Source: Branchiostoma lanceolatum (lineage: Eukaryota > Chordata > Leptocardii > Amphioxiformes > Branchiostomatidae). From it: a stretch of 64,000 bases of DNA. This document shows, piece by piece, positions 3,601 through 58,200 of the stretch; position 1 is the stretch's first letter; every line of letters starts with the position of its first letter. The stretch is taken from contig NC_089724.1 of NCBI RefSeq assembly GCF_035083965.1, forward strand, positions 20,478,974 through 20,542,973. Reading direction: 5' to 3'. Below the pieces are notes generated by a model. The model ran no database searches, was not told where the DNA came from, and was given only the letters and a program-made list of their open reading frames with translations. The translations under genes and the position numbers were made by a program.

Positions 3601-3614
3601 GCTTTTGTCTACAC

Positions 3615-3627
3615 GTTATTATCGTGT

Positions 3628-3686
<59 letters not shown>

Positions 3687-4450
3687 TGTCTGTTTGTGTT
3701 TCCGGACTATTGTAGTCCTCAAGAACCTCTTAATGCATAACTCAAGAACCTCTTGATGGATTACGTTGATATTTGGTATATGGGCGGGTGTTATGAAGCC
3801 AAAATTCAAGGTCGATTTTGGGCCCCTTGGTATATGACCTTGGGACTGCAGCAGAACTTCCGTTTTTGTATCTTTTGACCTGGACGTGCTGTGGTCTTGA
3901 TTTTTGAGTGGCAGGTAGCTTGTGATGTAATAAAGAAGTGGTGTAGGTTTGAGCCCCCTAGCAGCTTGCTCGGGAACTGCAGTGGCGTCATGGTGAGAAT
4001 CTTCTAAGGAGAATAACTGAACAAAAGGGACGATGGATTTCCATGGTATTTAGCATGCAGGTAGCGTAGACAGAGATGTACACAATGATGTGCAAATTAT
4101 GCTGATCGACACTTAATTTGCATAACTAATGAGGAAAATCTATATTTGCAGTGTTTTCCATTATAAGACTCAAATACATTGTAACATATGTAGTTTATGG
4201 TAAGTGGAGCATCAGCAGATACCAATTATGCAAATAAATTCCTAATTTGCATAATAAAGGCAAAAGTTCCGGAATTCATCCAAGTGGAAAATGATAGGAC
4301 TGACAATATTGCAGCATATCTAAGTTGGATGAAGGTGTTAACGACCAAGCATATATTATGTAAATGTGTAAGTCATTTGCATAAACAGAATAGTTCATGG
4401 AGATATGAGGTCGCGGAACTCTTGTTTGGTATGGGATGCAAATCTTAGAT
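3615..4450 (+). repeat. GT-headed dispersed repeat, copy 1
   Basis: Starts with a (GT)n run (3624-3690). Then come 'aactcaagaacctcttgatg', 'gatatttggtat', 'gggccccttgg', 'ctgcagcagaa' and a 3' part with repeated 'tttgcataactaatgagg'-like words. Open frames within it are by-products of the repeat. Confidence 0.85.
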
Positions 4451-21368: not shown

Positions 21369-21621
21369 GAATTCGAAAGCCCGTAATTCTGATATCTGCG
21401 AAAACACCTGTTTGCAGATTTTCGGAGCTTTATATACTTCACTACTACTTGCTGCCCACAGTCAAGCCGTTATCAACCATTTCACGAACCGTCTTGATTA
21501 AAAATTCAGTTTCGTGACATGTAGGGCTTTTCTCATATCGACTGGAATGGAGCTTGTCTGTTGTAGCTCAAATTGTAACCGCCGGGTGGCGTACATGTAC
21601 CGCTATTTTTGATTTACCGAC

Positions 21622-24600
21622 TTATTCCCGATTCGGGATCGCTGTTAGACCAGTTATTTCCAATTGCTCGACAAAAATGAGTTGACGTAGCTGCTCGTAC
21701 AAGGATTCGGCGGATGTGACGTTCCCGCGCTTGGACACAGCGGCGTCAGACCCACCGCATCGCCCGATACTGGTCTCTGACGTAATCGGCACACACTCCA
21801 GACTCTCCTCGCACGGGCAGCGCCAGAACTGCCTGTTTGGAAACAATTTCAAAATCTTACTAGATACACATCAAGCATGATATTTGGGTGACATTATATA
21901 TATTTCATGACACCAAAATACAACATTTTCTTATTATCTGTAATAGGAATAGTATCATTCAATAAATATAAACGATTAAAACAAATACACACCCTTCTGA
22001 TGTTATTTAACATTGAACCATAAGAAACCATACTTCCAGCTTTGATTTCTCTCTGATCTTTCCACCAGGTAATTACATTAATCAGTGACTTTACTCTCCC
22101 GATGACGTCACAATGAACACGGCAGCCGGTTCGGAACCTTGCACCATGGCTTGTGAAAAATATTATTTGATGATCAAACAGTGCTCAATTATCGTGATTA
22201 CATTCAATTAAAAGACGTTATGATATTTAGTTTGTTTGCTTCTCAAAAGAATTTTTTTTCCGAGCTGCAGTACAAAGTTCCAAATCGGCTGCCATGTTCA
22301 TTGTGACGTCATCGGGAGAGTAAAGTCACTGATTAATGTAATTACCAGGTGGGAAGAATCAAAAGCTGGAGGTATATTGTTTTGGTGTTTCGATGTTCAG
22401 TAAAATCCAAAGGGTGTCTATTTTGATACAGCCCTCCTGATGTGAGGTGAGGAGCGTAGGACTTAACATCATTTCTTCGAAAGGACAAGACCTAACCACA
22501 TACCGAATTTCATGACAATGATAATCTATCCATAGCTTTTCGAGCGATCAACCAGCAACAAAAAGGCTACCGAACACATACTGTAAATGCAGATATGTTC
22601 GCGGTGGTCTTATGTTTGTTTCTGATACTGTAGCAGTATGTGACTCTAGCGCTGCCGCAAACTTGAAACCGCGAACACTCCATTTTCGCCCTAGTGCGAA
22701 ATAAAAATCACGCGAACTCAAATGCATTTACAATAAGTTAAACTTTCTTGATACAGGTAAACAATGGAAGCGTTCAGGCTATGCATACAGACAGCATTTT
22801 ATCCTTGTGTAGGATACAAACAGGGAGCGCTTTAAGACATAACCTACATCAGAGCAAAAGTTATACGAAGCTAATAAGCCATGCATTTAGCTACGGAAGA
22901 GGGTGGATCCTTTGAACACTTTGATACGCCGGTTCGGACATGATGCTTGAAGTAACCGCGGCCTGGCACAGATTAAGGGTCACGAAGAAGGGTGTAATGT
23001 GATTGATTCCATAGATCCTTTTTTGCATTCGAAGGTTATGTTTTCGGGTGCATGCGTGTGTCTGTGTTTGTGTTTGTTTGTGTGTGTGTGTGTTTGTTTG
23101 TATCTTTGTTTTAGTGTGTGTGTGTCAGTGTGTGTGCATTTTCTTTGTGTGTGCGAACAGCATAAATCGAGAAGGCCTAAATGGATTATCTTGATATTTG
23201 GTATGTGGGAAGGTCCTGATGATATGATCGGATTTTGGACCCCCTAGGAACTTTTTACGGTACTGCAGCAGAATTTCCGGTTTTGATATCCTGCGCTATG
23301 GACAAGCTATGGTCATGATTTTGGGGTCGTAAATAGCTCTTCGGAGGGAGATTAAGTCGTGGAGGTCTAGATCCTCTACAAGCATTTTTTGGAACTGCAG
23401 GGACCAACTTCGTTTTAGAGTTTGAAAGGGAATAACCCAAGAAGGGGTTGAGGGATCGTCATGATTTTTGGTATGTGGATAGCCTAAGTACTGATGTACA
23501 TTAAAAAGAAATCCGTACTCTCTGGAAGATTCGTAACGCGTTCTGATCAATGTTGAGTACAACGCGGACAGTAGACGTCGCACTAAACTTTAATACAGCG
23601 ACGTTTTTGAGTGGCTTCTAATTCCAATGATATTTTGACAGGCCACCCTTATCTGACTAGCGCGTGTGAAAACAATCAAACATTTAAACATCGACGGAAC
23701 TTCAGCCCCTTTCGCAACTTTAAGGTTAACGTTGTAAATTCGCAACTTAGGATTTAAAATGTGAAAGTGTTGTGTACAGACGTATGTGTTACCCCTACCG
23801 TATGCCGTCGAAGGGATAAGGAACAGATTCCACCGTCGTGTGGCACATGTCCCTGACCACCCCCAGCTTCTTGCACACAGACAGGGTGGAGCCGGGGTTC
23901 CACTTGGCGCAGCACCAGCCTTCTCCGCGGGCACCCATGCAGTCCGTGTCAGTCTCACACGCCTGTACGGAACCAGGAACAATCTTAACGGGCATCCATA
24001 CAGTCCGTGTCTGTCTCACACGCCTGTACGGAACTAGGAACAATCTTAACGGGCACCCATACAGTCCGTGTCTGTCTCACACTCCTGTACGGAACTAGGA
24101 ACAATCTTAACGGGCATCCATACAGTCCGTGTCTGTCTCACACGCCTGTACGGAACTAGGAACAATCTTAACGGGCACCCATACAGTCCGTGTCTGTCTC
24201 ACACGCCTGTATGGAACCAGGAACAATTTTAACGGGCACCCATACAGTCCGTGTCTGTCTCACACGCCTGTACGGAACTAGGAACAATCTTAACGGGCAC
24301 CCATACAGTCCGTGTCTGTCTCACACGCCTGTACGGAACTAGGAACAATCTTAACGGGCACCCATACAGTCCGTGTCTGTCTCACACGCCTGTACGGAAC
24401 TAGGAACAATCTTAACGGGCACCCATACAGTCCGTGTCTGTCTCACACGCCTGTATGGAACCAGGAACAATCTTAACGGGCACCCATACAGTCCGTGTCT
24501 GTCTCACACGCCTGTATGGAACCAGGAACAATTTTAACGGGCACCCATACAGTCCGTGTCTGTCTCACACGCCTGTACGGAACTAGGAACAATCTTAACG

Positions 24601-25965
24601 GGCACCCATACAGTCCGTGTCTGTCTCACACGCCTGTACGGAACTAGGAACAATCTTAACGGGCACCCATACAGTCCGTGTCTGTCTCACACGCCTGTAC
24701 GGAACTAGGAACAATCTTAACGGGCACCCATACAGTCCGTGTCTGTCTCACACGCCTGTATGGAACCAGGAACAATCTTAACGGGCACCCATACAGTCCG
24801 TGTCCGTCTCACACGCCTGGAGGGAACCAGGTGAGACCCATACGTATACAGTACGTGTCCGTCTCACACGCTTGTACGGAACCAGGAACAGTCTTAACGG
24901 GGCTGAGCTTTTTTTTTTAACGCGAAGATCTGTTTGGATTCCTGAAAGGCATTTTTGGATAGCTTTGTCGAATAATGAGGACACATTTCCTTTATCATTC
25001 TATCCGGATTCCGATCCTCAATCCTAACTTTTAAGCCATACTATAGGTAAGAGAGTAATAAAAGGGAAGTTCTTCACGAAATGATTTCCAAACTTGTGAT
25101 GTGTTGGACACATGAGAATGCACTGTTGATCTCGCAATATCTATTCAGTATTTTGTAAAAGTTGAAAAGCAACTGGTGATTTTTTTGTCGCTGTTCTCAG
25201 CTAGACTCCTTTCAGGACAATGCTAATGGTCAAAACCGTTCAACATCAAGTCATACATGATGTCAACCGGTAATAGAATGTCCAGTACGTCCCTTCTTGA
25301 GCTGGAATATCTATACGGCAAATGATTCACGCAATTATGACCAATGTTGAATTGAATATTCGTTCATTTAGCCCTGATGGAGACAGGTATTCTAAACGAC
25401 CAGACTGAGTCTGGTAGAAGTCTTCTGAATATAGTCTGTTCCATTATCATGATTACCTATGCGACATTTCTGTAGTTTATGCTTTATTTTAACACGGCTT
25501 GATTTGAAACGTGGAACTGGAACCTGATCCTGAAAAAAGTTTCCCAAACTCTAGAAAAAAACGGTTTACCTCTGGACCATGTTTAATCTTCGCGATCGGA
25601 CTTTGCATTTCTGATACGGGTTGTTTTCCTAGTGCACAATATGGCACAAATGCTATAGACTTGTCGTTGCCAATGAGCTTTATTTCGTTTTGTATGCAAC
25701 TTCTTTAGTTCATTATGCTATAGGCGATCATTGCGGCCCCTACTGATATCGCCTTTTCGTTGTCCGATCTTCCAGCGAAAAAAAGTGATTTCACTGGTAT
25801 ATAACGCCCGGAAAGTTTACTCAACATTCACAAATCTAATTAACATCTAGGCTCACTGTGTATAAGGTTATTCTAAAGATCACTGCATTGACTCACCCCG
25901 GTCAGCACCAGCCCCGCTGTCATACTCCTGGCTAGAAACAAGACGTGAAGGAGAGCGATGATCAT
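21622..25965 (-). CDS. Prokineticin-like secreted cysteine-rich peptide (minus-strand paralogue)
   Basis: Three coding exons: 25897-25965, 23799-23962 and 21622-21832 (69+164+211 nt; 147 aa plus stop). Exon 1 encodes a hydrophobic signal peptide ending MTAGLVLTG, followed by a consensus GTGAGT donor. An in-frame TAA lies upstream of the ATG. Exon 2 starts ACETDTDC after a CAG acceptor and contains the GWCCAKWN and CHTT motifs; its donor is GTAGGG. Exon 3 continues RQFWRCPCEESLEC and GRC. All junctions keep frame. The ten cysteines (six in exon 2, four in exon 3) and the AVITG-like sequence just before the first Cys match prokineticins, which have a colipase fold and are secreted ligands of G-protein-coupled receptors. 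After the last Cys there is a tail of about 44 residues that the plus-strand paralogue lacks. Intron 1 carries the 61-bp array and intron 2 a dispersed repeat. Function is inferred from family; expression is unknown. Confidence 0.8.
22034..22372. mobile_element. MITE with long terminal inverted repeats beyond exon 3 of the minus-strand prokineticin-like gene
   Basis: Arms 22034-22145 and 22265-22372 pair over roughly 100 bp, including CCAGGTAATTACATTAATC and CTCTCCCGATGACGTCAC. The element lies in intron 2 of the minus-strand prokineticin-like gene. One arm of the same family occurs alone at 13066-13113. Confidence 0.8.
22581..22733. mobile_element. Short palindromic repeat with TGTAAATGCA ends
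   Basis: About 150 bp bounded by TGTAAATGC and GCATTTACA. The interior contains inverted TTCGCGGT/ACCGCGAA words. A related TTCGCGGT-rich segment occurs at 6940-7070. Located in intron 2 of the minus-strand prokineticin-like gene. Confidence 0.55.
23040..23500 (+). repeat. GT-headed dispersed repeat, copy 2
   Basis: Same order of words (GT-rich head, 'gatatttggtatgtggg', 'gaccccctagg', 'ctgcagcagaatttccgg', 'aagaaggggttgagggatcg'), lacking most of the AT-rich 3' part. In intron 2 of the minus-strand prokineticin-like gene. Confidence 0.85.
23929..24903 (-). repeat. 61-bp tandem array copying an intron/exon junction
   Basis: Unit starts at 23929, 23990, 24051, 24112 and so on, exactly every 61 bp to 24783, plus a diverged last unit ending near 24900: about 16 units. 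On the minus strand each unit is 27 nt of intron (GTTAAGATTGTTCC... TACAG) followed by 34 nt of exon-2 start, encoding ACETDTDCMGA. The unit nearest the gene (23929-23989) contains the real acceptor and continues into exon 2. The other units lie in intron 1. Reading on from any decoy acceptor gives a TAA stop just after ACETDTDCMGAR. Confidence 0.95.
24173..24782 (-). repeat. Two 305-bp higher-order repeats inside the 61-bp array
   Basis: Units differ at three diagnostic places: TACGGAACTAGG (type A) or TATGGAACCAGG (type B), and CAATCTT or CAATTTT. Units 5-9 read B(TTTT)-A-A-A-B(CTT) and units 10-14 repeat the same order without a visible difference, so 24173-24477 and 24478-24782 are duplicate 5-unit blocks. 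Confidence 0.85.
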
Positions 25966-27064
25966 CCTGTGGTCGCAGAGAGGACGTGTCGTACGGAAAC
26001 CGGAAAGTTAGTGAGGCATCAGCCAAGCAAGGACTGCTATTTGTACTCCGCCTGAGTGCACTGATGCCAAAGTGACTTTCATCTGCCATAGGGACCTCTT
26101 TCTGAGAAACAGGTACACCTGCTATAGGGCAAATTTAAAGCATCATTTGTATTACGCCACGAAGACGATTGAAGCAACCTAATGTGACATGATCAAAATA
26201 GAAACTTTGGTAAGAAATCTGCCTCGTGGATGTGCTGATTGTCCACCACACGTAGTCAGTTCGTCTCTCTAGTTCGTCTCACTTTGACAGGAAATAGCTA
26301 TAGATAATATCACATTTACCAGTGCTTGAGAGATTAACAGAGGTATCCGTGAAACAATACGCACGGTTATTCTGGTAAATCGTTACTGCTAAAATACTGA
26401 ACAAAAAGGTCTCGACCCTCAATCCCTTGACAAAGGTATTACTCCTTTTCTAAAACTAATAGTCTACTTTAGGTATTCACAAATAATCTTTAATGTCAAG
26501 AATCTTGACGACAACCCCATATTCCAAGCAATGCCCATGTGTTCATCTCTTTTGAGAATCAGACATAATTGAGTTAATCATACGGGTTAGGTGGTCCATC
26601 CTACACGTAATACCTGATATAAAGCGTGCATTTCTGTTCGTCCCGGGATTATCAGATCACAGGGCGTTTCCGTGGTCCCACGAAGAGCCCCGGAACATCA
26701 AAGGTCATGAAATGAATGAGGTTGGAACACCATCAGTCCATGACCTTTAGAACTATTAGAGATCTTTAGCTTTTTCGATATGGGGTTAAGGATAATTGTT
26801 TGGGGCCTTGTAAGGATATGACGTTCAAAAAGTTACGAATTCCATCAAAGTCTTGCTGTGCGATGCTGCATGTAAATATTTCCGTTGCTTTACCAAGTGG
26901 GGGCGAAACAAGAACCTCCAGCGGGATTTAAAGAGATTATGGGGTAACGAATTACATGCGAACGGATCATTTCAATGAATGATTTTTACGGAAAGACGTC
27001 TTCAGCGACAGGAAGCGGCTGGTTAAGTGACGTACATACTATGTTTGTAGGTGCCTTAAGTCTT

Positions 27065-27300: not shown

Positions 27301-27348
27301 TTAGCAACCAGCTAAAATCAACTAAGAAACAAACATCCAAACGCTGTG

Positions 27349-27718
27349 GATGGTAGATGGTACATACACAAGAATGCTAAGAATGGTGTACAATGTATCT
27401 TGGAGAAGTCATCTAACAAATAAGCAACTGTATGGTTCTCTGCCACCCATTTCGTCAGTTGTGCGACGCCGCCGGCTCGCACTGGCGGGACATGTTGTTC
27501 GCAGTGAAGAGCCTGCTGGGCGACTAATGCAGTGGCTACCTGAGGGAAAACGAAGGGTTGGAAGACCTCACACAACTTTAATGACATTGATCGAAAGAGA
27601 CACTGGAGTCTCAGGTTCTGAGTTATTTTCCGCCATGAAGGACAAATTGTACTGGAGGAACTTTATTGACTGTATCCCACCGGAGTAATCCGGATGAACG
27701 ATGATGATGATGATGATG
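27349..27718 (+). mobile_element. RTE-type LINE 3' fragment with 10-bp target-site duplication
   Basis: A 370-bp 5'-truncated copy encoding the C-terminal end of an RTE polyprotein (GTYTRMLRMVYNVSWRSH ... DCIPPE-stop), closed by a (GATG/ATG)n tail. It is flanked by AAACGCTGTG at 27339-27348 and 27719-27728. It lies between the two divergent prokineticin-like genes, about 1.4 kb beyond exon 1 of the minus-strand gene. Confidence 0.9.
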
Positions 27719-29655: not shown

Positions 29656-32600
29656 ATGGCAACACATCTCGCGGCTTGGTCGTCTGTTCTGACTTCATGT
29701 TTGCTTGTCTCCGTCGTAGTTCCATCAACTGTTGGATCCATTGTCATCACGGGGGTAACGAATGTTTTCTTTACTGTCTTTTCCTCAACTTTTTTATTGT
29801 CTGCATTTGTTATTGTACCCAGATAGATTTAAACACACATGGCGTTTTCATTTTGTGTACGTCAGCAAAGAAAAGGGGTCGGTCTTATTCCTTCTTTTAC
29901 TTCCCTTCTTTATAATGTAGTTTCGTTGTACTTCAGTGACTTGTAATTTCGACTCCGTGTACCTGTGTGTGTAAATAATTGATTTATGGCTATCTAAGAG
30001 TGAGAGTTGATTATCTATGACATTACTTTGTCCTTATAGATTGTGCGATATCATGATTCTTAGAAATTATCCTTCCCAGCACGATGTCGCTGCATCCCTG
30101 CACTTAGCGATGTGCGATGGTGCTTTATTTGCGATTTAAGAATTACTTAAAAGCAAAACTTCTCTAGTGACAATTTTGAAAAATTCCAACCTGTATGTTT
30201 TCCGGCACACATTGAGAAACAAAGTATTGTTTCCATTCTAGAGCCTGAAGTTCTTGTTGTTGATAAGATGCGTTTGTAGCTTCCCTCCTTTGGATATGGA
30301 GCGCAGCTCAAAATATGTGAAATACATGAAATCAACAGAACAAAAGGGGTTTCTGTTGAAAAAGAGACAGATTGCGTACCAGCTAGGAGAAAATTTCTCG
30401 TTAGGTTTTCGCTTGACAGTATCCGACACGCTCTTGTGGTGGTGTAGTGGTGTGCAGTTCCGTCTCCGGGCCACGGGGCCGTAGGTTCGCCCTGTCGTCA
30501 ATGTTCCAAAGCCCAATGTTCATGATAGTCAGTGATACAGACTGGGGATGCAGTCTGACGGAGGTATAGAAGAATCCATTATTCACATAAGAGTAGGAGT
30601 GACGCTACGTCTACTAGATACGCGGTGGTTTGAATCATTCAGTCCATAGCGCATCTTTTAACTGCACAGATCTGGCATGAGGCGATTCAATAGTGATGGA
30701 ACAAGCAAAGAAACAACGAAATATACTGAGTGCAAAGTTTAGATAAGCATATCATATAGATAAAGCAGGAGGATTGAACAAAACCATTTACTTCTTTCTT
30801 GGCTGGTAAATGCATACTTTTTTGTTGAAATGTTTGATTGCAACAAATTAGAAATCAGTCATGCTTGTCGGAATACCTCAAAAGGCTGACCAAAAACCAT
30901 TATAAAGCTGTAGGCTTTTAGGGATAGGTTTAAAGTAGACCCTCGCTGAGACCAAATGCGGAAAGATCCTACTTTGTTGTACATCAGCCTGTAGGTATAT
31001 ATCTACCGTACCGTAAGTGCTAGATTAAGAATGTAAGGATTGAATCAGCGTGGTAAGTAAATTTAAGTGTAACGTAAACCTCTTTTCACGTACTTCCTGA
31101 AATATGTACTCAAGGAAAGTTATCCCCTTTTAGTTTGAGCCTAACATATGCACGGTCAGAGCGGGTCTCGAACGCTCGACTAGAGAACAAGAAAGTTACA
31201 AGAATTTGCCGATGAACTAATTCTACCAAATTCCCTATGAATCAAACAAGATATCCGCTAGCCGTGTGTTGCAATATGAAGATATTGTTTCATTATGTTT
31301 CACCATAAGGTGCCCAAAGCCGTATTTCATTTTAGTTTTCCCAGTATGCTGCAGAAAATCAACCAGTGTTACCTATGCAAAACGTCGACTGAAAAAGAAA
31401 GAGACTGTAACTTTATACGATTTATGTTACACGACTCCGGGCTACCCTTTTCACCTATCCGACAGCCCTAAGCAAACAATCCTCCGTGCAATTTAAAGTT
31501 TGAGCCCCTCCGTTTGGGTATTAACCTTCAGTCGAACATGAGCACCTCAGGTGCACAGCCTTTTATGTATACACGTATATGGAAACGTCTGTGTGTAATG
31601 GATACGTACCCTATCGTCATTGTGAAACTTAACATAGATCCTACAGCGTGTAATGGAAAAGTAAAGCCATGGATGCACCCACTGCTATGATTAGTATAGA
31701 TTAATATGTACCCCTGCGGGGCTATCCGATGGCGCCATGGGACTCACTGAAAAGCTTAGTGTACCTTGTCAATGTGACAACTTATTTCATACGGACGTTG
31801 GTGTGGTACTGGTGACGGACGCGCTCAACGTTGTCCCGCTTGTTGTATTCCACAACGTAGTACGATGTCTGGAGAACCCATGCAGACATAGGCACGAATT
31901 GCTGCATAGAAATAGGGATAACATGTTGGAATAAAAAACAAACAACAATCAAGCACTCACAAAGGAGGTGCGCGAGAAAGCTGATACAGTTAAGCAAAGA
32001 GGGCGAGGAGGTCCATTTTTATATACCGCTGTTCAGATATCGCGTCCAGGTATTAAGTACATGCTGGGTCCGGATCTCTAATTATTATCTCCATGAAAAA
32101 TGGAGATATAGTTTTGGGTGTGTCTGTGTGTCTGTGTGTCTGTGTGTCTGTTTGTTTGTTTGTTTGTGTTTCCGCACCACTCTAGTTAGCATAACTCAAG
32201 AACCTCTTGATGGATTACAATGATATTTAGTATGTGGGTAGGTGTTGTGAAGCCGAAATTCAAGGTCAATTTTGGGCCCCCTGGTATGTGACCTTGGTAC
32301 TGCAGCAGAAATTCCATTTTTGTATCTCTTGACCTGGACGTGCTATGGTCTTGATCTTTTGGTGGCAGATAGCTTGTGGTGTAATGAAGACGTGGTGTGG
32401 GTTTGGGCCCCCTAGCAGCTTGCTCTGGAACTGCAGGGGCGTTCTCGTGAAAATCTTCTAAGGAGAATAACTGAACAATGGAACGATGGATTTCCATGAT
32501 ATTTAGTATACAAGTAGCGTAGACAGAGATGTACACAATGAAGTGTTAATTATGTTAATTAGGACTTAATTTGCATAACTAATGAGGTAAATCTATATTT

Positions 32601-33650
32601 GCAGTGTTTTCCATTATCAGACTCAAATACATGTAACGTATGTAGTTTATGGAAAGTGGATCATCAACAGATACCAATTATGCAAATAAATTCCTAATTT
32701 GCATAATTACTAGTAATGCAAAACACCATATCTCATGTAATTGGAAAATTATAGGACTGTCAATATGATACTTAGTATGCAGGTAGCTTAGACAGAGATA
32801 TACATAAAGAAGTGCAAATTATGCTAATTGTGACTTAATTTGCATAGCTAATGAGGAAAATATCTATATTTGCAGTGTTTCCATTATCAGACTTAAATAC
32901 ATGTAACATATGTAGTTAATGGAAAGTGGAGCATCAACAGATACTTGTTCACAGCTGCATTCAGGTCAACCATCTTCAACGAGATGAGGAAAAACTCTGG
33001 ATATCCGAAACCTGCTAGCGATATCGTCAACTCCTTACATATAAGACTTAAAGACTGTAACATACGAAAAAGTCAAGATTGTTTTATTTCTGTTGTATTA
33101 TCTAGATATGTGAGTCTGACGAGCAGTGTATCGAGGCTCGGGGGGAGGGCTGGTGCTGCGCCCTGTGGAACATGGGGGACGCCCCGACCGTCTGCAAACG
33201 GATGGGCGAGGAGGGCGAGGCCTGCCACATCTCCAGTAACGTCCTGCCCTATCCCTTCGAGGGTGCCAGGTGAGACTCACACACGCATGGCTATTCCCCG
33301 AGTAATCTGAGCTGTTCAAAAATAATTGTGTTTTTGCTACCTTTGTTTATTCATGAGAAGCTCAAATCGACATGCAGGCCGCTTTTCATTGAGGTCATAA
33401 GGGAAAAGGTAAGGGTCGATGAAATATAACAGAGATATAGATTACATCATTTATAAAAGTCCTAACCTCTTTCAACACATAACATTACCTATATATTGTA
33501 CAACACGTTTTCTGTTATCATATCCATTTTGTACTGATGTTGGTTTTTGTTTGTTCTTACAGACGTTTCTGGCGATGCCCATGTGACCCGAGCCTCACGT
33601 GCAAGGTCCCGGCCGACGGTGACAGGATCGGTACCTGTACCTCCGGCTGA
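29656..33650 (+). CDS. Prokineticin-like secreted cysteine-rich peptide (plus-strand paralogue)
   Basis: Three coding exons: 29656-29754, 33106-33269 and 33563-33650 (99+164+88 nt; 116 aa plus stop). Exon 1 starts MATHLAAW, has a hydrophobic core (LTSCLLVSVVV) and ends GSIVITG at a GTAACG donor. Exon 2, after a TCTAG acceptor, gives ICESDEQC then GWCCALWN, VCKRMG, EACH and VLPYPFEGAR, with a GTGAGA donor. Exon 3, after a TTACAG acceptor, gives RFWRCPCDPSLTC and ends GTCTSG-stop. The SIVITGICE junction closely matches the AVITGAC-type N-terminus by which prokineticins activate their receptors. Ten cysteines allow five disulfides. The protein ends almost immediately after the last Cys. Exon 2 has exactly the length and phase of exon 2 in the minus-strand gene, so the two are paralogues. 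The promoter side faces the other gene. Known family function: secreted signalling peptide. Confidence 0.87.
30435..30500 (+). mobile_element. Possible tRNA-derived SINE head
   Basis: GTGGTGTAGTGGTG resembles an A box, and GTAGGTTCGCCCTG, 30 nt further on, resembles a B box. The spacing fits, but the B box is imperfect and no complete stem set forms. Lies in intron 1 of the plus-strand prokineticin-like gene. Confidence 0.4.
32090..32940 (+). repeat. GT-headed dispersed repeat, copy 3
   Basis: Closest relative of the 3.6-kb copy ('aagaacctcttgatggatta', 'gggccccctggtatgtgacc', then 'gcaaataaattcctaatttg'). Sits in intron 1 of the plus-strand prokineticin-like gene and ends about 165 bp before exon 2. 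Confidence 0.85.
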
Positions 33651-36027: not shown

Positions 36028-38688
36028 TTATACAAGTTTCTTGGCCTCAAAGAAGCTCTTGAGATGCCTCATCTGCCAGAAGCCAGTGACCAGAAGGATG
36101 ATGGTCTGAGCGATGGACCACCACAGCACTCGCTGATTTGTACTCTCGCTGGTCAGGCGGAAACGCTCCTCACGATACTGGAATGAAACAAAATGTGATC
36201 AATCAACATTAGTCTGTGTAACACAAACTATAAAGTATAAGCGAGATATCATATAATCAGGCTAAAACAACATCATTCATAAAAGTTTATACTACATTAT
36301 CAAATATGCTGAAATAAGATTAAGTTCAATTATGCTGACTAGACAAAGGTGTTAGCCTTTACTGAAGGGGAAGGACAGAATCTTAACATAATTTTGTCCC
36401 TTTACACACACAACACCTAGAATAGTGTTGGAGCGGGTAGACTTCTGGTAGCTAAAATCTTACTTCAATTTGACCTACAACATCCTTCCAAAGTGCTGTG
36501 CATTAAAATTTTACAGTACAGTATTATGCACATCTGTATTTAGAGCTCTGAAAAATATGACAGAATTTACACCCTGTCCTTATGATTTTACTGCATTTCC
36601 ATACTATGTCTAAGAGACAAACATAAGATGTAAGATTCTAAATAAGTTACCCTTTGATAGTTCTGTTCCTTCTGGATCTGTTCCACCTGGTCCAGCAGCT
36701 GTCGTACTCGCAGCTGCAGCTCCGTCAGCTTGTCCTTGGCAGCGATCTGGGAGTAGTCAATGGCATGTTCGCCCACCTGGATGTCCAGATGCACCCTCTG
36801 GGAAACACAACAGTTCAGCAGGTCAAACAACATGTTCTGTTCTGGGAAGTGATTTCTTGATGGTTCAGAACTAAGAATGAGTGCAGTTGGATACTATTAT
36901 CTGTAGTGAAGACATTACCATTAGGTGATTGTAAAAATGAGGAAACCGACTTATTAAGAACAAACAAATTCACTTCTGAAGAGTATAAAGAGATCAGCAG
37001 GAATGCACCTGTTTCCTTACAACAAAACAGAATTGCATTTCACTACATTAAGGCCTTGTCAGAATATGGAATCCTCCCATGAAATAACAGCCATGTACTA
37101 ATATCATATTTCAATAATCTTCTTTGTATGTCATACTCGATACTCCTTTAAAACTTTACCCGGTAGTTGGTCTGTTACGCAGAAGGGTGGCTATACTACA
37201 ATGTAGCTATACAGATTAAGAAAACAAGACAGTTAACTAAACCAGGCAGTTACCAGTTTCCCTCCAGCAAACAGCCCCCACTTGGTGGAGTTGCTGTACA
37301 GACAGATGACATGTTCCCCTGGGGTGTGTGAGGTGAAGGTGAATCGCCCCTCCGAACTGTACGCCTTGGACAGGAGGACCTTGTCGTCTGGGTCACGGAC
37401 TTCCACGTGCATCCCCACGCCCGGACTGGACGGAAGGTAGTCGTTGATCGTCTTGTCAAAAAGCTGTGTTTTGTACTTTCCTGGTGTGATGAAGTAAAAT
37501 TTGTGTCACTTACTGACTTACTGCAGTTGGAAATGTTTAATGAAGATACAAGTGCCATACATGATGGCAATGAATGAGTTTCAGTTAAGGATTAATGCAT
37601 TTGCATGTAAAAACATACATGGGCATCTATATTTGCACCACCCTGAACATTCTCAGACTGCTGACACCTTTGTTTCTATCCTACATACTGCTTACAATTC
37701 AAATATTTGTTAACTCTGACTTTGAGTGAATAAAGTCACCTTGTCACACTAAAATACTTGGCCATCCACTTGCCTCAATTTGGACAGCAACACCATTTTA
37801 CGATGAGAACAATTATAACTCAGTATAACTGTTTACATCTATGATATCTGTACAAATTCATAGTTTAGCTAACAATCTGACATCCGTTGACAATACAACA
37901 CAGCTTGCCTAACTTAACAACCCATTGCATCTGTGCCACAGTACTGCCACTACCAGCTGGTGCCATGTCATAATACTTATTTATAAAGAACAGCCTGTCA
38001 AGTGGTTGGTCTGCTTATCTTTAATTTGCCTTGAATCCTGTGAGTTATAAGCTAGAATTTTAGCATGTTTGTGCAAATTTTGTTAGAGTATGTTGTAAAT
38101 ATCCTGTCACCTCTAAAAAGAGGATGAACTTTACTGATCCTTTAATCTGGAAAAGCACCAACTCCTGAGACTAGTTAACCATTCTACATGATAAAAATGA
38201 ACAGTGTACAAAAAGGCATTGGCATATATATATCTGTATATCCATGTTGGCCCCATGAAATTATGTAACGTTAGACATTCATAATTACAGGATAAATAGT
38301 CTTTACACGTCAACATATGGATGACATGTTACGTTTGTTTGCACACATTTCACACATATCAAAGGATGTGTTAACTACTGTGTGTTCAAATGAATTCATG
38401 TTTACAGATAACGATTTTTTTCGTACCCTCCGACCTCTCTTCCACTAAAACTACCGAGATATAGGACCTAAAAAAATCGAAGTTGTCTGCATGTTTCTGT
38501 CGAGGAAAAACATGCTTCTCCGCCCCCCTCCCACCCCGACAAAACCTGTTTCCGCCCTCTCACTCACCTACTACCATGGTCTCGTCCGGAATTTCTTCTA
38601 TAAAACATTTCTTCTCTGTCTCCCCGATGTGGAAATACAGCGCAGAAGTGCAAGAGAGGTAGAGGACTGAGAACAGGAGAGTTTTCAT
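36028..38688 (-). CDS. TMED4/9: p24-family cargo receptor, TMED4/TMED9 type
   Basis: Four coding exons: 38568-38688, 37254-37480, 36651-36797 and 36028-36177 (645 nt; 214 aa). An alternative in-frame ATG at 38703 would add MWPSV. The signal peptide [16 protein letters not shown] is followed by [18 protein letters not shown]. Next come the GOLD-domain segments [14 protein letters not shown] and [13 protein letters not shown], then a coiled coil ([14 protein letters not shown] ... [10 protein letters not shown]), one membrane segment ([18 protein letters not shown]) and the cytosolic tail FFEAKKLV. The tail has the FF and KKxx signals for COPII/COPI. Known role: ER-Golgi cargo selection and vesicle formation as p24 heteromers. 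All splice phases are consistent and the length matches the family. The 5' end lies in a GC-rich, TATA-less stretch. I cannot separate TMED4 from TMED9; an invertebrate chordate is expected to have one pro-orthologue. Confidence 0.95.
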
Positions 38689-39629: not shown

Positions 39630-41395
39630 ATAAGTGAATAAAGCCAGGGCAAAGTTTAAGTACGCCCTAAGACAGTGCAAACAGGAGGAAAACAGGGCAA
39701 GAGCCGACTCGACTGCGAAAAGTTTCAATGCCGGCCATACTAGAGAATTCTGGAAAAAGCTCCGTAGTACTAAATCCTCTCATTCTGTATTACCTAACAC
39801 TATAGATGGTTGCTCTGGGGCTGAGCAGATCGCAGACATGTGGAGGAGTCATTTTGATAAACTGCTGAACTCTGTTAATAGTGAAGTACATAGACCTGCT
39901 GTTATGTCTAATTTGTCGACAGGTTGTCCTTTTGAATTTGATTCGGGGATGCAAATCTCTGCTGTGGAAGTATATGATATAATTAGAAACTTACCCAATG
40001 GAAAAGCGGTAGGGTCTGACGAAATCAGTAATGAACACCTTAAATATGCGGGGCCTAAGCTTAGCATATGCTTATCACTATTGTTTTCAGCCGCGCTTGT
40101 CCATAACTTCATTCCGAAAAGTATGTTAGATACTACCATCATTCCGGTTGTTAAAAACAAAACTGGTAATATTTCTGATAGTGATAACTATAGACCAATA
40201 GCAATTGCATCAGCATTATCCAAAGTTCTGGAGGCTGTTTTATTGAACAGGCTAGAGCCATATCTTCAAACCACTGCTCATCAGTTCGGTTTCAAACGTG
40301 GTCATGGTCTTGACATGTGTGTATTTACTTTAAAACAGACAATTGAGTACTACCGGGGTCTCGGCTCTCCAGTTTTTGCTTGTTTTTTAGACGCCTCCAA
40401 GGCTTTTGATAGGGTAAACCATTGGACCCTATTTAAAAAACTCCTTGACAGAAAGGTCCCGGTGTATTTGGTGAGGTTTCTGGTTTATTGGTACCAGAAC
40501 CAAACAATGTGTATTAGATGGAACAATGTTTTGTCTCCCTGCTTTTATGTATCAAATGGGGTAAGGCAAGGGAGTCTGCTATCCCCGCTACTATTCAATG
40601 CATATATAGATGATTTAAGCTCGAGACTCAGTTGTACTAAAGTAGGTTGCTATATAGGAGGCTGTCTTGTGAACCATCTTTTTTACGCTGACGACATGTG
40701 TTTGTTATGTCCTAGCCTTAAGTCTCTGCAAAAACTTGTAAGTACTTGTGAGGACTTTGGTTTAGAAAATGATGTATTATTCAATGTAAACAAGACATGC
40801 TGCATGTACTTCCCGAGTGCTAGTTTGCCACTTTTACATCCGCTCCCGTCGATCAAACTGTATGGAGAGTGTCTGAGATTTGTGACATCATTTGTATATC
40901 TTGGAATTGCTATTAATGACAGACTGAGTGATGATGACTGTATCCTTGCCCAACTAAGGGGCCTGTATTGTCGAGCAAATACTATAATTCGAAAATTTTG
41001 CCTTTGTTCACCTACTATTAAGAAAACACTATTCGCGTCTCACTGCTCCCAACTCTTTGGGGCGCAGATATGGAATTCTTTTCGCTCGAGTGTTCTGTCG
41101 AAATGTCGAATTGCCTACAACAATTGTTTCCGTATAATTATGAGTTTCCCAAGATCTTGCAGCGCAAGTGAAATGTTCGTGTGTAATCATACCGATACCT
41201 TCGACGCCAGATGGCGTAAACAGTGCCACTCAAGAACTCATTTTTCACCAACCTATGGAGCCGCCTCTACACATAGCCATAATATTGTTAGTTTGTCTCA
41301 AAATGTTGTATATAATCTTTGTTTTTCATGTTTGTCCCTATGTCATATGGGCCAGTGAGAGCCTGAAATAAAGAAATAATAATTTAGTGAACTTA
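39630..41395 (+). mobile_element. 5'-truncated LINE (CR1/L2/jockey-like) with open reverse transcriptase
   Basis: The element lacks the endonuclease half. It begins near 39630, where protein similarity starts, and ends after an AATAAA at 41367-41372 and a short A/T-rich tail (AAATAATAATTT). It sits between the TMED promoter and the 3' end of the PLP-enzyme gene, in the opposite transcriptional orientation to both. I could not find a convincing target-site duplication. Confidence 0.85.
39634..41358 (+). pseudogene. LINE reverse transcriptase, N-terminally truncated but open
   Basis: 574 codons without a stop, opening at GTG rather than ATG. Reverse-transcriptase motifs are in order: GKAVGSDEISNEHLK (about residues 123-137), SDNYRPIAIASALSK (about 183-197), FLDASKAFDRVNH with the first catalytic Asp near 253, GVRQGSLLSPLLF (309-321) and YADD at 351-354. 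A cysteine-rich C-terminal part follows (about 430-560). It is incomplete because the apurinic endonuclease domain and the 5' UTR are missing, so it cannot move on its own. The intact frame implies recent insertion. The clade assignment within the CR1/L2/jockey group is by general resemblance only. Confidence 0.85.
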
Positions 41396-41436: not shown

Positions 41437-41538
41437 CTACTCTACTCTACTCTACTCTACTCTACTCTACTCTACTCTACTCTACTCTACTCTACTCTAC
41501 TCTACTCTACTCTACTCTACTCTACTCTACTCTACTCT
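41437..41538. repeat. (TCTAC)n pentanucleotide microsatellite, about 20 copies
   Basis: Essentially perfect 5-bp repeats. It starts about 40 bp after the LINE tail and ends 10 bp before the stop codon of the minus-strand PLP-enzyme gene. A transcript of that gene would carry it, as (GTAGA)n, at the very start of its 3' UTR. Confidence 0.97.
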
Positions 41539-41547
41539 AAAATGTGA

Positions 41548-44397: not shown

Positions 44398-44606
44398 TGA
44401 AACTGTGTGATAAGCAAGGAAGAAATATTTAAGCTTTCATTGTCTGCTGCATTTTTCGTTCGGTTAGCCGTTGAATACAGTAACCCAAAGCAACAACGCC
44501 ATCTAGTGACATGGGTAGGAGCTGCACAACCCCAACCATATGCAATGGAAATGTTGCATATATAGTCAGACTACGGCACATTCGGTCTGTTTTTAATTCC
44601 AGATAC

Positions 44607-45350
<744 letters not shown>

Positions 45351-56572: not shown

Positions 56573-57921
56573 CATCATCATCATCGTTCATCCGGATTAC
56601 TCCGGTGGGATACAGTCAATAAAGTTATTCCAGTACAATTTGTCCTTCATGGCGGAAAGTAACTCAGAACCTGAGAGTCCAGTGTCTCTTTCGATCAATG
56701 TCATAAAAGTTGTGTGAGGTCTTCCAACCCTTCGTTTTCCCTCAGGTAGCCACTGCATTAGTCGCCCAGCAGGCTCTTCACTGCGAACAACATGTCCCGC
56801 CAGTGCGAGCTGGCGGCGTCGCACAACTGACGAAATGGGTGGCAGAGAACCATACAGTTGCTTATTTGTTAGATGACTTCTCCAAGATACATTGTACACC
56901 ATTCTTAGCATTCTTGTGTATGTACCATCTAGTTTCTTACTCTGTGCTGTACTCATGGCCCATGACTCAGAGCTGTAAAGTAGGATGGTCTCGGTACAAG
57001 CTTTAAACACTTCAGTTTTTGTCTGTTTTCCAATAGGAGCTTTCCATATCTTTTGTAGAGAATGGAGAGAACTCCAAGCTTGAGCAATCCTGCGCTCCAT
57101 ATCTCTCCCTGTATCAGTATAGCCCCCTCAATACTTGAAGTCAGCTACACACTCGATTTCAGAGCCGTCAGATGTAGTTAGGCGCTCGGAAGATGTAGGG
57201 TTCAAATGCATATATTTCGTTTTGGATGGGTTTAGATATAAGCCGATGGCCTGACATGCCACTTCTACTTTGTTAAGCATGGTTTGTGCGAAAAGTAGTG
57301 AGTTTTCGAGAAGGCCGATGTCATCAGCAAAATTAATGTCGGCAAGCACTTCGGCAGGGTAGCGACTACTGCGACGACGGCGGAGGGTAAAACCATCAGT
57401 GTCTGAAATCGAGTGCCTTAAAGCATAATCTAGACATATGATGAATAGAAACGGGGCCAGAGATAAACATGCTAAACATATCAGTCTCTCCATCTGGTGT
57501 AATAACTACTGCAGAGGTGTCTCTATACATGACTGCTATAGCATTAACAATGTCTAATGGAACTCCATATGGCTCTAGAATCTTCAACATTTTGCTGCGA
57601 TTGATACAATCAAAAGCCTTACGAAAGTCGATGAATACTACAACAGCTTCTTTGTCAAAATGTCTTAGTTCTTCAACAATGCGACGCAGCACAAGAATGT
57701 GTGATGTAGTAGATCGGCCTTGGCGGAAGCCATTTTGATTTGGGCGAAGAATTCCATCAACAATAGGGCGAATCCTGTTCAGCAGGCAACGGTTATACAC
57801 TTTACATGCAGTTTGTGATAATGAGACACCTCTATAATTGTCCACAGATCGAAGATCCCCCTTCTTAGGAATTGGAACAATCCCGGATACTCCCCATTCC
57901 TTTGGGCGCTTCCCATTGTAA
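56573..57921 (-). mobile_element. RTE-type LINE, 5'-truncated, with 10-bp target-site duplication
   Basis: 1349-bp insertion in minus orientation. Its 3' end is the CATCATCATCATC tail at 56573-56585. GAGAAACTAT flanks it at 56563-56572 and 57922-57931. It has split a copy of the dispersed GT-headed repeat, so it is younger than that copy. Its 3' 330 bp are nearly the same as the 27.35-kb copy. Confidence 0.9.
56597..57921 (-). pseudogene. Broken RTE reverse transcriptase
   Basis: Fragments in order: KRPKEWGVSGIVPIPKKGDL, DNYRGVSLSQTACKVY, FIDFRKAFDCINRSK (first catalytic Asp), then a frameshift/deletion after the DGETD segment that removes the usual LQGD-type motif. The frame resumes at SPFLFIICLDYALR and INFADDIGLLENS (catalytic DD). 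DFKY is followed by an in-frame TGA where the family has a sense codon, and the rest runs GGYTDTGRDMERR to DCIPPE. At least two lesions plus the 5' truncation make it non-functional. Confidence 0.85.
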
Positions 57922-58200
57922 GAGAAACTATAATGAGAAAATAATGATTCCATTATGGTAAATATGGACAATTTCATACTTGTGGCATTTGGAAGTTATG
58001 TGAATGTGAGCATTACTGAATATGGATTATGCTAATGACAACCTACTTTGCACAGTTGATAATAAATGCTAGAATAGCTCTCTTTGTTATGGTAAGACTC
58101 ATACTTTAGACAACTTCTGTTATTTGGATGGAGAAGATAATCAACTGATACGATTTATGCAGATGATGACTTATTGAGCATAATCAATTAAAAACACTCA

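Follow-up and report, generated by a model that had tools for sequence, protein, structure and literature searches.

The 64,000-nucleotide stretch of the Branchiostoma lanceolatum genome analysed here (NC_089724.1, positions 20,478,974 to 20,542,973; hereafter the window, with a guanine-cytosine content of 41.2%) carries on its minus strand a prokineticin-like gene with coding exons at 25965-25897, 23962-23799 and 21832-21622. On the same strand, a 61-bp tandem array of 16.1 units occupies 23928..24901, and its innermost unit is the real boundary between intron 1 and exon 2 of this gene. We describe the array as mirage-type, after the published amphioxus minisatellites, called mirages, that lie over exon-intron boundaries.

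The coding part of exon 1 (25897..25965) translates as MIIALLHVLFLARSMTAGLVLTG, looks like a signal peptide by eye only and ends LVLTG, directly after which stands the donor GTGAGTC. Exon 2 (23799..23962) is 164 nt long and open, carries a putative prokineticin-like domain and ends at the donor CG/GTAGGG (a slash marks the splice junction). The coding part of exon 3 (21622..21832) starts at 21832 behind the acceptor AAACAG/G, reads Q-FWRCPC.. (translation QFWRCPCEESLEC..) and runs for 69 residues to a stop codon at 21624-21622. The phases of the three exons are compatible. Intron 2 contains one copy of a suspected dispersed repeat with a (GT)n end, described further below.

Each exon was queried separately in the Pfam and PDB comparisons of prokineticin-like genes. 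Exon 2 alone scored 18.6 bits (E 0.0024) against Pfam Prokineticin PF06607, for which the cut-off is 21.6 bits, and gave weak matches to three PDB chains up to E = 10, including Intestinal toxin 1 (1imt, E 0.057, the best) and Bv8 (2kra, E 0.067). LVLTG at the end of exon 1 precedes ACE, which bears a loose likeness to the AVIT signature ascribed to chordate prokineticins (PMC11521371). The label "prokineticin-like" appears reasonable mainly because of the three-exon layout and a paralogue. This second prokineticin-like gene lies on the plus strand, opposite to the array gene, with exon 2 at 33106-33269 and exon 3 at 33563-33650; a crude scan for patterns between 25.9 and 33.1 kb gave no candidate for its exon 1. 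Its exon 2 (33106..33269) is 164 nt long like that of the array gene, shares 52% identity with it over 54 residues and scores 26.6 bits against PF06607, above the cut-off, and there is no repeat at its acceptor. Repeated 14-mers numbered zero at this acceptor (32950-33300) and likewise at the exon-1 donor (25700-26000) and exon-3 acceptor (21600-22100) of the array gene; the check for boundary repeats covered these three regions.

Tandem Repeats Finder delimits the array at 23928-24901 with a period of 61, 16.1 copies and 94% matches. Read on the minus strand, each unit consists of the intron end with its CAG acceptor, followed by 35 nt from the start of the exon. There are 16 copies of the boundary: the real site, whose first exon base is 23962, and decoys whose first exon bases are 24023, 24084, 24145, 24206, 24267, 24328, 24389, 24450, 24511, 24572, 24633, 24694, 24755, 24816 and 24871. 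Thirteen near-identical decoy units (23989..24781, minus strand; first exon bases 24023 to 24755 in steps of 61) form the core, and all thirteen keep the acceptor AG. Two decayed units make up the outer edge (24782..24901, minus strand): 24816 has the acceptor CTCCAG, and the outermost, 24871, has lost the aligned AG and reads ACAA/G. The aligned AG is therefore present in 15 of the 16 units and in 14 of the 15 decoys. A preliminary description of this DNA had reported a 61-bp satellite of a splice acceptor and the start of exon 2 in a minus-strand prokineticin-like gene; Tandem Repeats Finder and the 16 boundary copies bear this out. Its count of about 15 decoys also agrees with ours, with the qualification that 13 are good copies and two are decayed, one of them without the aligned AG. 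A chance origin of the array is excluded: its most frequent 20-mer is present 13 times, and no 20-mer appeared more than once when the window was shuffled base by base 200 times.

Variation among the units is slight in the core and concentrated at the edges. Within the 13 core units only five of 61 columns vary, three of the 26 intronic and two of the 35 exonic, and none of the five touches the acceptor AG. Of 61 positions, 0-4 differ between any two core units, 3-4 between a core unit and the real unit, and 11-13 between unit 24816 and every one of the 14 units set against it (24871 was outside this comparison). One intron position and two exon positions set the real unit apart from the array consensus, and both exon differences are synonymous (ACT/ACA, Thr; TGC/TGT, Cys), as would be expected if the real copy alone were constrained; in the core units, two codon variants alter the residue. 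The core comprises two types. In type A (nine units) a G-to-A change at -12 creates an additional AG and leaves 8 AG-free nt, and type B (four units) has A at -6, two of its members also being without the AG at -22. The AG-free distance is 8 nt in nine core units, 19 nt in two and 46 nt in two, and it is 19 nt at the real site. The extra AG at -12/-11, found in nine of the 13 core decoys (24023-24694) and absent from the real acceptor, may weaken or shift the use of these decoys. It looks like a variant that expanded within the array, because G stands at this position both in the real unit and in the outermost one.

The ends of the array point to how it may have started. CCCG ends the copied piece of exon and also precedes the outermost unit in the intron, and because it stands at both ends, the split of the unit into intron and exon can be moved from 26+35 to 30+31 with equal validity. 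The earlier division into exactly 27 and 34 nt is one of these equivalent ways of cutting the unit. The two CCCG sites fit a putative first duplication between them, although four matching bases could also be due to chance. Later growth is seen in two adjacent five-unit blocks on the minus strand (24172-24476 and 24477-24781), of 305 bp each and with no difference in 305 positions. When the 13 unit types were shuffled in order 100000 times, such a block duplication arose in 103 cases, which argues that units were gained in blocks, as in minisatellites. The 4-bp end microhomology, the 305-bp block duplication and the edge units left out of the homogenisation of the core give the array the appearance of an ordinary minisatellite.

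The block duplication could alternatively stem from the assembly. Copy number here is based on one haploid sequence, and identical adjacent 305-bp blocks are what an erroneous assembly or haplotype join would give, so that the true array might be shorter, longer or polymorphic, its copy number having been inflated or collapsed. Precedents are at hand: the draft genome contained a misassembled version of the BflGb6 globin mirage, whose two haplotypes have 6 and 3 units (PMC3087553), and lancelet PGBD5 exists in two versions with 2 vs 7 and 3 vs 6 units (PMC3902484). Against this, the decayed edges and the variety of units (A and B types, B with AAAA, G-to-A and C-to-A forms) show that the array truly has many units, however many there are exactly, and we consider an altered copy number unlikely as the explanation of the array.

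The preliminary description knew of no described array of this design; amphioxus mirages are in print, and one of them, that of BflGb6, is of like design (PMC3087553). In BflGb6, an intron's 3' end is repeated in tandem together with the 5' part of the following exon 2, in 150-160 bp units of which the two haplotypes carry 6 and 3, and the boundaries of the cluster escape homogenisation (PMC3087553). The present array likewise consists of tandem copies of a 3' intron end and 5' exon 2, many of them with AG, with a homogenised core and an excluded edge unit; it differs in having a 61-bp unit, 16 units and another host gene. The combination of homogenised core and divergent edges, as reported for BflGb6, supports a mirage-type assignment by analogy. 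Amphioxus Adh3 also carries minisatellites over exon-intron boundaries, with units of 10-72 bp, which are said not to disturb splicing and are unstable in length, also somatically (PMC3087553, PMC3902484); here again the host gene is another one. Duplicated splice sites similar to ours are found in lancelet PGBD5 and troponin C. The splice sites of PGBD5 carry repeats of 60 and 108 bp, with fewer units than here (2 or 7, 3 or 6) and imperfect copies (PMC3902484).

Four of seven features of published mirages are matched by the array. Its unit spans the boundary, with 26-30 nt of intron 1 and 31-35 nt of exon 2; 61 bp falls within the 10-160 bp range of published cases; the splice signal is present in many, not all, units (15 of 16); and the core is homogenised with edges outside the turnover, the real unit retaining its own differences. 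The other three features are a cephalochordate host, length instability between alleles or cells, and undisturbed splicing. Judged by these comparisons, the array appears to be a high-unit-number example of the published amphioxus mirage and is not new in kind. The human 6-16 (IFI6) gene reportedly contains, to go by a title, a minisatellite with multiple splice donor sites, similarly many copies of one splice site; these are donors rather than acceptors, however, and are said to be used in the transcript.

Reading in phase 0 from a decoy acceptor, 12 residues are followed by TAA in 14 of the 15 decoys. The exact peptide ACETDTDCMGAR is obtained from 11 of the 15, with ..CMDAR in two others and ECETD.. 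in one, and the outermost decoy (24871) gives 20 residues in phase 0. The earlier statement that decoy use yields ACETDTDCMGAR and then TAA consequently holds for the early stop, and for the exact peptide in these 11 only. A protein-coding role for the array itself was considered and ruled out, because a 61-bp unit shifts the reading frame and the core phase-0 readings stop after 12 residues. Exons running from a decoy acceptor to the exon-2 donor would measure 225 to 1073 nt, compared to 164 nt from the real one. Exon definition in general would favour the real site, and nonsense-mediated decay would clear most errors. In this gene, the real acceptor is the only copy that continues into the rest of exon 2 and also the nearest to the exon-2 donor, so exon definition should favour it.

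Intron gain has been proposed for a globin mirage, BflGb13 (PMC3087553), and new introns reportedly form from human tandem repeats that lie at exon-intron boundaries (PMC2812944). Applied here, some units would already be exons or be on the way to becoming so. By eye the unit has no strong donor, every core unit contains an in-frame stop, and the exon stays open without the array; we regard an intermediate of intron gain as extremely unlikely.

The same anatomy invites a regulatory reading, in which the extra acceptors would recruit U2AF/U2 and delay or divert the splicing of intron 1, the number of units tuning the output of a hormone gene. The aligned AG in 14 of 15 decoys, the stop 12 codons into 14 of 15 and the absence of the AG from the five variable columns all agree with it, and human decoy exons that promote intron retention have been described, for example in OGT (PMC12017769). 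Like the decoy exons of OGT, the array units are intronic splice-site sequences with stop codons that might engage the spliceosome; the OGT decoy exons differ in not forming a tandem array, in having their own donors and in having been tested experimentally (PMC12017769). Described decoy exons own 5' splice sites in addition to acceptors, whereas here an AG in 14 of 15 decoys is accompanied by no better donor-like word than CGT/GTGAGA, picked by eye. Furthermore, the core units were copied too recently for AG retention to indicate selection, and with three of 26 intronic and two of 35 exonic columns variable no part of the unit is under visible extra constraint. Many copies are also unclean as acceptors, nine of the 13 core decoys having the extra AG and 8 AG-free nt vs 19 at the real site. 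Published mirages, moreover, are said to leave splicing undisturbed (PMC3087553, PMC3902484). Taken together, a regulatory decoy array seems quite unlikely.

A more specific form of this reading, which we hold to be very unlikely, is an array-length rheostat, in which the number of acceptors, varying between alleles and perhaps cells, would set the share of productive messenger RNA (mRNA) of a secreted prokineticin-like hormone. Its premise, a change of length between alleles or cells, is reported for the Adh mirage (PMC3087553, PMC3902484). For the switch or titration role put forward in the preliminary description we found no positive evidence and no support beyond the anatomy of the locus. 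The published data on Adh, troponin C and globin mirages suggest that regular splicing is undisturbed (PMC3087553, PMC3902484), and PMC3902484 cites the duplicated splice sites of Adh and troponin C as yielding no aberrant mRNA.

Most probably, then, the array is a mirage-type minisatellite with a unit that, by accident, extends across an intron/exon boundary. The best reading, by analogy with the published cases, is that it is largely neutral: splicing would skip the decoys, or would use them on rare occasions and lose the resulting mRNA. From the gene anatomy, the array, its unit variants, the block duplication, the end microhomology and the stops, which are observed directly, we infer its origin steps, the part played by exon definition, the decay of mis-spliced RNA and its near-neutrality. 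An initial tandem duplication would have joined the CCCG of the intron to that of exon 2, copying 61 bp in which the 3' splice site is followed by 35 nt from the start of exon 2. Single units and, on one occasion, a block of five would then have been multiplied by slippage or unequal exchange; the core would have been homogenised while both edges drifted, the real acceptor being the exon-side edge unit. Exon definition would favour this acceptor, and transcripts using a decoy would acquire an early TAA and probably be lost by nonsense-mediated decay.

Two observations weigh against this account. With the two nearest decoys the exons would be no longer than 225 and 286 nt, which is within the tolerance of exon definition, and distance therefore does not ensure that these decoys are bypassed. 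In addition, when acceptor strength is gauged from AG-free distance and pyrimidine counts alone, the real acceptor has no clear advantage, its polypyrimidine fraction being 0.71, as in 14 of the 15 decoys, with 0.82 in 24816.

The locus offers a natural high-copy case for the old question of how the spliceosome chooses one acceptor among many that are near-identical. With 16 boundary copies in line, 13 of them near-identical decoys, it bears on exon definition vs first-AG scanning. If lancelet genomes carry many such arrays, they would also have a bearing on tandem duplications as a way of creating or moving introns.

A search of Rfam gave no matches at gathering scores. Elsewhere in the window, several mobile-element remnants were noted. 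Open reading frames (ORFs) for reverse transcriptase at 39634-41358 (plus strand) and 57396-57995 (minus strand) match Pfam RVT_1 with 111 and 58.7 bits, and by appearance both are remains of elements of the non-long-terminal-repeat type. A perfect CTACT pentamer array of 20.6 copies (41437-41539) begins 79 bases past the end of the 574-residue reverse-transcriptase ORF and may be the 3' tail of that element. GT-rich microsatellites near 3624-3699, 23056-23136, 32118-32169 and 44609-44707 each lie beside similar-looking sequence, and the ORF translations of 3609-4049, 23296-23589, 32186-32545 and 44429-44803 have phrases in common, which suggests that they belong to a family of dispersed repeats ending in (GT)n. 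The nearly identical ORFs 27326-27688 (plus strand) and 56597-57127 (minus strand) represent a mobile element present in two copies, both containing ..YTRMLRMVYNVSWRSHLTNKQLYGSLPPISSVVRRR.. in translation. Lastly, exons of the p24/EMP24-GP25L family (Pfam PF01105, 41.4 and 37.4 bits) lie on the minus strand at 36588-36893 and 37233-37505.
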